From: Gammaproteobacteria bacterium
GTDB lineage: Bacteria > Pseudomonadota > Gammaproteobacteria > HK1
Direction of reading: 5' to 3'
Assembly (NCBI GenBank): GCA_022826505.1
Contig: JAJDUQ010000262.1
Location: 1-64,000 of the forward strand
Length of the DNA: 64,000 nt
The translations under genes were made by a program, and so were the position numbers. Of the stretch, positions 14,019 to 20,840 are shown piece by piece; within the stretch, counting starts at the first letter, position 1; the number at the start of each line of letters is the position of its first letter. The notes under the pieces are model-generated. The model worked only from the letters and a program-made list of their open reading frames with translations, did no database searches and had not been told where the DNA came from.

Positions 14019-14594
14019 TCAGCGCATCAACCGCACCAACTCCGCGACCGACCGCACACCGAGCTTGCGCATCCCGCGTGCGCGGTGGAGTTCGACGGTG
14101 CGGACACTGATTCCCAGATTGGCCGCGATGACCTTGTTGGTATTCCCTTCCGCGACCTCTCCCAGGACCTCGCGTTCGCGGCGTGTCAGCGTGTCGAGCC
14201 TGTGAACGTCGGCACGCCTCGCCCGATCCCGGGCCAGCGCTTCACGCACCAGCGCCAGCAGCACCGCCGGATCGAACGGCTTTTCCAGAAAATCCATCGC
14301 GCCGGCCTTGAGCGCACGCACTGCCGCAGGCACGGTTCCGTAACCGGTGAGGAAGATGATCGGAGGGACATTGTCGTCGCCGGCGAGGTGTTCCTGGAGT
14401 TCGAGTCCGCTCAATCCGGGCAGCCGAAGGTCGACAATGAGGCAGCCCGGATTGCAATGCCCCAACTCGGCCAACAGGCTGCGGGGGGAGTCGAACGTCT
14501 TCACCTCGAGACCCTCCCCACGCACGAGCATCGCGATCGAATCGCGAACCGCCGGGTCGTCGTCGACCACGAATACGGCTGCTTCATCGCTCAC
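14019..14594 (-). CDS. fixJ: FixJ-type response regulator
   Basis: The protein has 191 residues. The receiver domain has acidic DDD at 11-13, the phospho-acceptor D55 in IVDLRLPG, a Thr switch in FLTGYGT and K105 in LEKPF. A LuxR-type HTH (LTRREREVLGEVAEGNTNK then GISVRTVELHRA) occupies about residues 125-185. FixJ, phosphorylated by FixL at low oxygen, activates fixK/fnr-type genes. The start codon overlaps the fixL stop by four bases, so the two are translationally coupled. Confidence 0.88.
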   Translation of the reverse strand: MSDEAAVFVVDDDPAVRDSIAMLVRGEGLEVKTFDSPRSLLAELGHCNPGCLIVDLRLPGLSGLELQEHLAGDDNVPPIIFLTGYGTVPAAVRALKAGAMDFLEKPFDPAVLLALVREALARDRARRADVHRLDTLTRREREVLGEVAEGNTNKVIAANLGISVRTVELHRARGMRKLGVRSVAELVRLMR

Positions 14595-15751
14595 GATTCA
14601 CGCTTCCCGTGTGACGGAGACCTCGGGTGCGAATCGCACGGTGGCCGAGGCAGCTCGAGTGCGAATCGAGCGCCACGGCCTCGCTGCGACTCCGCCCACA
14701 ATCGTCCGTTGTGGCTTTCGGCAATCGATCGGCTGATCGCCAGTCCGACTCCGAGTCCGTTCGGCTTGGTGGTGTAGAAAGTTTCGAAGACACGCTCGCA
14801 CTGCTCCGGCGTGAGTCCCGGTCCGCTGTCCTCCACCACCAGGCGCACGCGGTCGGTACCCGAACGGTCGGCCTGCATCCACACCCGAGGGCATTCCGTG
14901 TCCTCGACCGCATGGAAAGCATTGCGCAGCAGGTTCAGCAGGATCTGCTCGATTTGCACGCGATCCGCGTTGACCGCGGGCAGTCCGGTCTCGCAGCGGA
15001 CCGTGACCCCGATGCTGCGCCGCCGCCGCTCGTGGTCGACGAGCTGGAGCGTCTCCGCGATCACGTCACCGAGATCGATGACTTCTCGTCGGCTTTCTTC
15101 CTTGCGCACAAGGCCACGCAACCGCGAGACGATCTCCGCGGCATGGATTCCCTGCTCGGCGACCCGGCCAAGCGCGTCCTCGAGCAGCGCCGGCTCCGCC
15201 CCGCCGCCACGGACCGCGCGCAGGCACGCCTCGGCGAAGCTCACGATTGCGGTCAGGGGCTGGTTCACCTCGTGCACGATACCGGAGCACATCTCTCCCA
15301 GCTCGAGCAATCGTGCGGTGTGGGCCGCGCTTTCCAGGCGCAGCCGCGCCCGCACCTCCATCTCGCGACGTTCCGTGAGATCGCGGATGATGCCGGTGAA
15401 CAGCCGTCGTGCGGGCAGCCGCACCTCGCTCACCGCGATATCGGCGGGGAAAACGGTGCCATCCTTGCGTTGCGCCTCGACCTCGCGACCGATGCCGATG
15501 ATTCGCGCCTCGCCGGTGCTCAGGTAGCGCTGGATGTGGTGGTCGTGCTCCTCCCGCCAGGGCGACGGCATGAGCATCGACACGTTGCGTCCGACGAGCT
15601 CCTCGCGGGCATATCCGAACATCCGCTCCGCAGCCGGGTTGACGGACTCGATGACGCCGGATTCCTCGATGGTGACGATTGCGTCCACGGCGGTTTCGAG
15701 GATTGCCAGAAGCCGCGCCCGACTCTCGGAAATGCCGGCATCACCACCCAT
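14591..15751 (-). CDS. fixL: FixL-type haem oxygen-sensor histidine kinase
   Basis: The protein has 386 residues from ATG 15751. A longer start at 15775 is possible, and neither has a strong ribosome site. A single PAS domain (about 10-130) keeps the FixL haem pocket. REEHD gives the proximal His (H69), followed by QRY (R75), then ARIIGIGR with the distal Arg that contacts bound oxygen (R89). The kinase core has H160 in IVHEVNQPL, then N, G1 (DSGPGL) and G2 boxes. There are no membrane segments, so it is a soluble kinase like the Bradyrhizobium enzyme. No nitrogen-fixation genes are nearby, so it probably tunes micro-oxic metabolism. Confidence 0.87.
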   Translation of the reverse strand: MGGDAGISESRARLLAILETAVDAIVTIEESGVIESVNPAAERMFGYAREELVGRNVSMLMPSPWREEHDHHIQRYLSTGEARIIGIGREVEAQRKDGTVFPADIAVSEVRLPARRLFTGIIRDLTERREMEVRARLRLESAAHTARLLELGEMCSGIVHEVNQPLTAIVSFAEACLRAVRGGGAEPALLEDALGRVAEQGIHAAEIVSRLRGLVRKEESRREVIDLGDVIAETLQLVDHERRRRSIGVTVRCETGLPAVNADRVQIEQILLNLLRNAFHAVEDTECPRVWMQADRSGTDRVRLVVEDSGPGLTPEQCERVFETFYTTKPNGLGVGLAISRSIAESHNGRLWAESQRGRGARFALELPRPPCDSHPRSPSHGKRES

Positions 15752-19586: not shown

Positions 19587-19615
19587 TTGTGAATGACCGG
19601 ATTGGAACATATATT
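19587..19615 (+). promoter_or_regulatory. Sigma-70-type promoter for the DUF1127 gene
   Basis: TTGTGA at 19587-19592 and TATATT at 19610-19615 are separated by exactly 17 bases, 61 bases ahead of the DUF1127 start. The region is markedly AT-richer than its surroundings and faces away from the LysR-type gene. Confidence 0.55.
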
Positions 19616-19676
19616 CTGTGGTCAATACACCGGCCGGATGATCGTCCGATTCGAATACAAGGTGAGGAAAACTATC

Positions 19677-20156
19677 ATGAAGGCAACCGCATCGAACGAG
19701 AATGGAACCGGCCGCCCGGTCACCGCATTCGCGATGCAGGAGACCGCAATCGCGCCCGCCCGGAACATCGTGCCCGACCGCCGTGCAGCGAATGCCGACG
19801 ACTTTCATCCGAAGTTCCCGCAGGTCGTCGAGGCCGCGGCCGCCCGGGTCGGGCGGGCAATTGCCGGTTTCGTGCAAGGACTGCGTGACCATGCGGAGCG
19901 TCGCCGCACCGTGCGCGAGCTGCGTCGGCTCGGGCGCTCCCGTCTTGCCGATATCGGTATCGAGCCGAACGACATCGAGCGAGTGGTGGCTGGCATGGTC
20001 GCCGCACGACGGAGCCGCAGCACGAACTCGGGACGCCGCCGGCCGGCGCCAGGTTCCGCCGCACCTTCGGGAACGTCCGCACGCGACGCCCGGGGGACCT
20101 CGCCCATGTCACGAACCGGCGTCGCACCCGATCCGGGCGGTCGGGCGGAGAGGTAG
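19677..20156 (+). CDS. DUF1127 domain protein
   Basis: The protein has 159 residues from ATG 19677 with an AGGTGAGG site. Residues about 75-110 form the DUF1127 motif (TVRELRRLGRSRLADIGI then IERVVAGM), an Arg-rich helical element found in small alpha- and gammaproteobacterial proteins. Some of these bind RNA and affect phosphate and carbon stress responses. The C-terminal 45 residues are low-complexity, rich in Arg, Gly, Ser and Pro, and longer than in the usual 45-80 residue members. The start could therefore be internal, or the tail may be a lineage-specific extension. Confidence 0.7.
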   Translation: MKATASNENGTGRPVTAFAMQETAIAPARNIVPDRRAANADDFHPKFPQVVEAAAARVGRAIAGFVQGLRDHAERRRTVRELRRLGRSRLADIGIEPNDIERVVAGMVAARRSRSTNSGRRRPAPGSAAPSGTSARDARGTSPMSRTGVAPDPGGRAER

Positions 20157-20228: not shown

Positions 20229-20450
20229 TCAGGCGCGCGCCGCAATCGCCTCCACTTCCTTCCACTTCGGGAAGCGGCCTGTCGCCTTCTTCGAGTAGAC
20301 GAGATCACCATTGAGGGTGATTTCGAACACGCCGCCCGAACTCTTCACCAGCTCGATGTCGGCGTCGTCAATCCGGGACAACCTGTCGCTCACACGGAGC
20401 GCTTCGGGTTCATACCCTCAAGCACCGCAATATTCGATCCTGAACTTCAT
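20229..20450 (-). CDS. SelW-like selenoprotein (Rdx family) with in-frame UGA
   Basis: Reading the minus strand from ATG 20450 (GGGAGAGG ribosome site seven bases upstream) gives MKFRIEYCGAU, with codon 11 TGA at 20418-20420. The frame then continues for 62 more codons to a second TGA at 20229-20231. The sequence after the first UGA is typical of SelT/SelW/SelH proteins: GYEPEALRVSDRL, then SSGGVFEITLNGDLVYSKK and ATGRFPKW. The C8-G-A-U11 motif matches the CxxU redox centre of selenoprotein W. A hairpin follows at the correct distance for a bacterial SECIS element. The product is a 73-residue thioredoxin-fold redox protein. Ordinary gene callers stop at codon 11 and miss it. No selA/B/C/D genes are visible in this window. 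Confidence 0.8.
20387..20401 (-). promoter_or_regulatory. Candidate bacterial SECIS hairpin
   Basis: On the minus strand, CGCTC and GAGCG form a five-base-pair stem around loop CGTGT. It starts 17 bases after the in-frame UGA, and the loop contains G and U. A smaller GGGT-ATGA-ACCC hairpin (20406-20417) directly follows the UGA. Stem length, loop size and distance fit the general bacterial SECIS pattern recognised by SelB. Confidence 0.5.
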
Positions 20451-20840
20451 CGTTGCCTCTCCCGCAAGTGCTCACTTTCCCGGCGCAAGGATACATTCCG
20501 AGCCTTCCGTGTACCACGCGCACACGCACGCGCGGCCCAAGCGATTTCCGGTAGCGTTCGCCGTCGACATGGAAAGCGGTGAGTCAGCCGGCGAGTTCCT
20601 TCTCCCCGACGATGTCGGCCACCCGGGCGGCCTTGCCAACGACCGCCGGGGCACGCTCTTCGTCGCCGACCGAAGCAGCTCGGCAGCCGCCATTGTCGAA
20701 CCCCCTTCCCGGCACCGGCCCCGCATCCTCGCGGCGGCCGAACCGCCTCGGCCATTGATTGAGGAAGGCAGTGGTGGCCGCGAAGCGACCTGCGGCCAAC
20801 CCTTCGCGGCAGGAATCCGCATCGCTCCCGACTCATCGGG
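20451..20840. other. Non-coding stretch with a possible gene remnant
   Basis: There are 390 bases between the SelW-like start and the UspA stop. On the plus strand, 20565-20670 reads DMESGESAGEFLLPDD then GHPGGLANDRRGTLFVADR. This resembles an NHL/SMP-30 repeat (HPGGLAVDxxGTLYVAD), without a recognisable rest. It may be a decayed six-bladed propeller gene. Otherwise it must contain the promoter for the SelW-like gene, which I cannot define. Confidence 0.35.

Follow-up and report, generated by a model that had tools for sequence, protein, structure and literature searches.

In the window (the whole 64,000-nucleotide stretch of DNA analyzed here), a minus-strand frame opens with an ATG at 20450 and runs to 20229, encoding a small protein of the Rdx family (Table 1). 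The gene, selW, has a universal stress protein gene (Usp) as its neighbor on one side and genes for DUF1127, LysR, and PhyH proteins on the other. A preliminary description of this DNA had proposed an ATG-started frame behind a ribosome-binding site, with TGA as codon 11 in a C-G-A-U motif and a second TGA at codon 74, and all of these elements are present in the sequence. Written with U for the first TGA, the 73-residue product reads MKFRIEYCGAUGYEPEALRVSDRLSRIDDADIELVKSSGGVFEITLNGDLVYSKKATGRFPKWKEVEAIAARA. Upstream of the start, a GGAG-, GAGG-, AGGA-, or GGGA-type tetramer is found within positions -17 to -4 in 24 of the 32 distinct TGA-containing sequences, and the stops of the relatives near codon 74 are TGA, TAG, or TAA.

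Table 1. Features of the selW locus, with positions given in the window.
Feature	Position	Strand	Basis
DUF1127 protein gene, adjoining selW	19593-20156	+	Kept with LysR in L033 and L035
selW-like (Rdx family) selenoprotein gene (predicted), 73 codons plus stop	20229-20450	-	Pfam, TIGR02174, selection, AlphaFold model
TGA codon 74, true stop	20229-20231	-	Next in-frame stop after codon 11; identity collapses beyond it
Bacterial SECIS-like hairpin	20380-20410	-	Core 5-bp stem 20387-20401, loop CGUGU 20392-20396, lower stem AACC/GGUU
TGA codon 11, predicted to be read as selenocysteine in C-G-A-U	20418-20420	-	32 distinct rows with TGA (window counted), 4 with TGC
TGC codon 8, partner Cys of CxxU	20427-20429	-	Cys 8 in 36 of 36 aligned rows
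Ribosome-binding site GGGAGAGG	20456-20463	-	Sequence; ends 5 nt upstream of the ATG

Translated through codon 11, the product is recognized by existing models of both Pfam and NCBIfam. The Pfam Rdx profile (PF10262) matches residues 4–67, spanning the TGA (E 1.7e-17; 63.8 bits, cut-off 22.6), in agreement with the earlier assignment of the sequence past the UGA to Rdx/SelW, and NCBIfam TIGR02174 (CXXU_selWTH) scores 56.7 bits, over its cut-off of 34.2. The model NF041051 (SelTWH_Campy) returns a better E-value than TIGR02174 (2.7e-23), but its 82 bits lie under the curated cut-off of 88, so that by the model's own rule the product is no member of this equivalog. A phmmer search against PDB sequences (E ≤1) gave eight distinct matches, namely C17orf37 (MIEN1), 2fa8, mouse SelW, and five other bacterial proteins. 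The AlphaFold model, for which 36 aligned window and relative sequences served as input, has a mean pLDDT of 97 and places the C8-x-x-U11 pair between strand 2–8 and helix 14–24. At E ≤0.001 there were 23 PDB matches, comprising bacterial Rdx-family chains (2fa8, 2oka, 2obk, 2ojl, 2p0g, 3dex), mouse SelW, and MIEN1, while the weaker rows among the matches listed are mostly thioredoxin-fold chains. The model has its fold in common with these six Rdx structures and with mouse SelW (2npb) (TMq 0.71–0.89), at an identity of 24–32% over the structural alignment. The model and the PDB matches together point to the thioredoxin-like fold of the Rdx family.

To assess conservation of the frame, pN/pS was pooled across the 45 pairs formed by 10 ungapped sequences. 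The values, 0.207 for codons 2–10 and 0.317 for codons 12–73, show that selection is purifying ahead of the TGA as well as past it. Compared with the three nearest relatives, nucleotide identity is 0.87–0.90 within the gene, 0.35–0.60 over the 20 nt preceding it, and 0.24–0.29 in the 78 nt past the stop. Purifying selection on both sides, together with the drop in identity past the stop, indicates that the reading frame is maintained through codon 11 and terminates at codon 74, in keeping with the earlier proposal that selection holds it open across the UGA; with the Rdx profile running across the TGA as well, chance is an unlikely source of the frame. A shorter gene, starting at the GTG of codon 20 and encoding a 54-residue protein that lacks the active site, is the result given by the standard code. 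The plain list of open reading frames holds just this 54-codon fragment at 20229-20393 (GTG at 20393), and its product still matches Rdx (2.6e-11). However, codons 2–10, which contain strand 1 and Cys8, are conserved as protein (pN/pS 0.21), and the 54-mer would have neither strand 1 nor the active site; we reject the downstream start as very improbable. The locus is a clean case in which a standard list of open reading frames gives the wrong gene, of 54 rather than 73 codons and without the active site.

A search of the genome collection, which reaches close relatives only, found 28 relative loci, with codon 11 being TGA in 25 and TGC in three (L057, L059, and L060) and codon 8 being TGC or TGT in all 28. 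This search carries no bias to TGA, because its patterns skip codon 11 and the query had Cys there. Searching the 17 genomes of the family gave 11 matches, of which 10 have one internal TGA and one (L031) is stop-free with TGC. After removal of three duplicates, L033, L034, and L035, which are identical to L025, L023, and L024, respectively, there are 36 distinct rows, 32 with TGA (the window included) and four with TGC, and all 36 have Cys8. A separate stop-free Rdx protein (L077), placed in neither alignment, also has Cys at position 11; alignment A1 excludes the four Cys rows. The CxxU motif with alternation of Cys and Sec codons at position 11, as the preliminary description had anticipated among homologs, is thus observed. 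The record titles of the TGA rows, which are unchecked and nearly all those of metagenome bins, name Gammaproteobacteria, Rhodospirillaceae, Desulfobulbaceae, Acidobacteriota, and Actinomycetota, and further ones name Planctomycetota, Chloroflexi, Marinimicrobia, and Bacillota. At the sensitivity used, nothing similar was detected in the plasmid collection.

In the assembly from which the window comes (G000), the tRNA-Sec gene selC scores 73.6 bits at C70:14428 and is called tRNA-SeC with anticodon TCA by ARAGORN. On the same contig are selB, at C70:15489-16640 (369.7 bits; 418.6 with a second stretch at 14565-15344), and selA, at C70:16813-18162 (571.5 bits), all three genes lying within 4 kb, and selD is at C338:68481-69395 (301.7 bits). 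The domains of SelA, SelB, and SelD are detected in the assembly's products, and the sel set on which the earlier reading of the gene depended is therefore complete. The selD frame (L019:1387-3738, minus strand) spans 783 codons, has no in-frame TGA, and also encodes a pyridine-nucleotide oxidoreductase domain at the N terminus, an arrangement similar to the Ndh-SelD fusions that a Global Ocean Sampling (GOS) study mentions (PMC2398784). The bin has a completeness of 94.5% and an estimated contamination of 7.36%, with selW, selABC, and selD on three separate contigs. The resulting worry about contamination is largely answered by G004 and G005, single-contig chromosomes of the same genus, where selC, selB, and TGA-selW are on one contig.

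Among the 17 family genomes, selB occurs in nine (G000, G002–G005, and G010–G013). TGA-selW is found in all nine of these and in none of the eight genomes without selB (Fisher p 4.1e-5, kinship ignored), and the same nine have tRNA-Sec scores of at least 71.6 bits. If tRNA-Sec is judged solely by the 47-bit Rfam cut-off, 12 of the 17 genomes pass; the marginal matches in G006, G007, and G009 (47.1–47.8 bits), all without selB, may be other long-armed tRNAs. In the eight genomes without selB, stop-free distant Rdx proteins were seen in G001 and G009 and none in the other six. The motif is C-T-Q-C in G009 and R-I-G-C in G001 (L077, G001:C18:49288-49503, minus strand), the latter with Arg at position 8 and Cys at 11. 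The same SelW protein with Sec changed to Cys is absent from the selB-negative genomes among the 17 examined. Searches at the order level drew on the same 17 genomes, so that the survey is no wider there. It is conceivable, though we consider it rather doubtful, that in this order SelW is one client keeping the selenocysteine system alive, with Sec required for function and not exchangeable with Cys.

By sequence alone, more than one inserted residue would be compatible with the UGA, which could in principle be decoded as Trp or Cys, for example, through suppression or an altered genetic code. However, UGA also terminates the window gene itself and its near relatives L023–L025 and L036–L041, and the full Sec system is present, with TGA-selW following selB across the family; a reassigned UGA is hardly credible on these grounds and is rejected. 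Least probable of all, to the point of being negligible, is a SelW inactivated by a nonsense mutation or a sequencing error at a former Cys codon: TGA is one change from the TGC seen in four of 36 rows, but the same TGA is found in 31 other distinct loci with titles of several phyla, which are not independent and yet are not one error, purifying selection continues past it, and in the family the TGA form occurs only with selB. The comparative data make recoding very likely here, and the gene is almost certainly a bacterial selenoprotein W with its UGA codon 11 decoded as selenocysteine. The presence of selABCD, the alternation of TGA and TGC at codon 11, and the co-occurrence with selB all argue for this decoding, which the preliminary description had also favored.

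Shortly after the UGA, the transcript can form a SECIS-like hairpin of -6.7 kcal/mol for the core and -9.8 kcal/mol with the lower stem (Table 1). Set against the bacterial SECIS rule, the window hairpin has the loop CGUGU, 5 bp, and a spacing of 21 nt, while the distance from the UGA to the start of the loop is 17 nt, not 21, in L027–L030, L032, L049, L055, and L056. Covariation was tested in a gap-free alignment of the 32 TGA rows with 500 shuffles. The core stem has standard pairs in 81.9% of cells, 30 cells changed on both sides, and a covariation score of 0.443; none of the 500 shuffles reached either of the latter two values, and slid versions of the stem scored at most 0.139. Two of the five measures were not clearly over the shuffles, namely pairs with a double change (3 vs. 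3.0) and further pair types (8 vs. 6.4, equaled in 40 of 500), and the rows are related, so that counts are not independent events. Under the strict loop rule (a stem of at least 5 bp at the SECIS distance, with G[G/U] heading the loop), 29 of 32 rows qualify, where synonymous shuffles would give 9.2. The other variants likewise gave 29 of 32 rows, against 17.3 for G[G/U] with 4 bp, 16.6 for G within the first two positions of the loop with 5 bp, and 26.2 for the published rule at its loosest (the latter G with at least 4 bp), which therefore says little. Cys rows also obey the rules (four, three, four, and two of the four rows for first-two G with 4 and 5 bp and G[G/U] with 4 and 5 bp, respectively), so that the hairpin fails to separate Sec from Cys genes. 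Support for the hairpin comes from the covariation and the strictest loop-rule count.

Hairpin stability was also considered as proof of a SECIS and was rejected. Relative to synonymous shuffles, the energy z-score is 0.16 for the window, whose hairpin is no more stable than they are, and averages -0.60 over the 32 rows, which are only slightly more stable. A stem-strength test reached p 0.05 in four of 32 rows (mean z 1.34), and in both tests such stems were also seen in Cys rows. An Rfam search returned three matches only, far under their gathering scores. When 55 nt around the UGA are folded, another pairing is preferred, while folding of 45 nt starting at the UGA prefers the hairpin.

By analogy with the known bacterial pathway, SelA and the selenophosphate made by SelD would generate Sec-tRNA-Sec, to be carried by SelB. 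SelB would recognize the hairpin right after the UGA, and selenocysteine would be put in at position 11 in place of a stop, giving a predicted 73-residue thioredoxin-like protein. Without selenium, translation from the ATG would presumably yield just a 10-residue peptide. The CxxU motif and the thioredoxin-like fold suggest thiol/selenol redox chemistry, as in the family, with C8-x-x-U11 most likely the redox center. The selenolate would attack an oxidized substrate and Cys8 would resolve the intermediate; the reductant would probably be glutathione or thioredoxin.

In eukaryotic SelW, as in mouse, the SECIS is located in the 3′ UTR. Bacterial and eukaryotic SECIS elements are contrasted in a Sargasso Sea study, which also describes bacterial SECIS elements in SelW-like genes and names SelW-like as the most abundant selenoprotein family there, with 48 genes (PMC1088965). 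According to later reports, the GOS data contain 427 SelW-like sequences (PMC2398784), and very few or no Cys homologs of SelW-like proteins exist in Sec-using organisms (PMC1794560). The family identifier cited in these sources is Pfam05169 (PMC1088965; PMC2398784) or PF10262 (Rdx) in a 2026 review, where SelW-like is listed as predicted with high confidence (PMC13188914). Bacterial SelW-like CxxU selenoproteins were described in 2005–2008 (PMC1088965, PMC1794560, and PMC2398784), in a literature that terms their function unclear, and the window gene therefore falls in an already known group. It shares with the marine genes (PMC1088965; PMC2398784) a short Rdx product carrying CxxU, a UGA within the frame, and, immediately past that UGA, a SECIS-like hairpin. 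No difference of kind from that set was found; the window gene differs in coming from another lineage, the genus of G003–G005. Among literature titles on bacterial SelW and sponge-symbiont selenoproteins, none names this lineage, which as a matter of titles is weak evidence. What is added is a well-supported Sec-form SelW, along with a full Sec system, from a genus that has received little study.

In the same genome, four GrdB/PrdB-like genes (PF07355) were observed at L073 (C66), L074 (C338), L075 (C292), and L076 (C19). In each, the frame meets a TGA within a U-P-x-C motif just past the Pfam match, and the 45 residues past the TGA are 71–73% alike among L074–L076 and 33–36% alike to L073. 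From this pattern, the four are probable further selenoproteins. The 26 formate-dehydrogenase-alpha matches in the assembly are without an internal stop. When the window was screened by GC3 for further genes containing TGA, 34 candidates were returned but the SelW gene itself was missed, and the screen is therefore no evidence either way.

The surroundings of selW were compared by searching for 10 window neighbors in 31 loci. LysR and DUF1127 are kept together in two close relatives (L033 and L035), and part of PhyH is found in L035. A neighbor that we take to be racemase-like is found in L033 and L034, a presumably cytochrome-c-like one in L034, and one assumed here to be acetyl-CoA synthetase-like in L035 and, as a weak match, L036. 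The other window neighbors, including Usp, were found in none of the 31 loci searched, although absence from the loci of the G-numbered genomes says little because their flanks are at most 1.5 kb. No clue to an operon partner or a substrate came from the 10 neighbors in these 31 loci.

A second selW copy with an internal TGA occurs in G004, a genome of the same genus (L032, G004:C1:1348366-1348575). This copy is 78–86% identical to selW of genera g6 and g7 and 55% identical to the first copy of its own genome, perhaps through transfer or an old duplication. In L027 and L032, the frames run past codon 70 into non-matching tails with clustered cysteines (ECCTPEAVCREEC and CRIACC), which are possibly extra redox or metal ligands.
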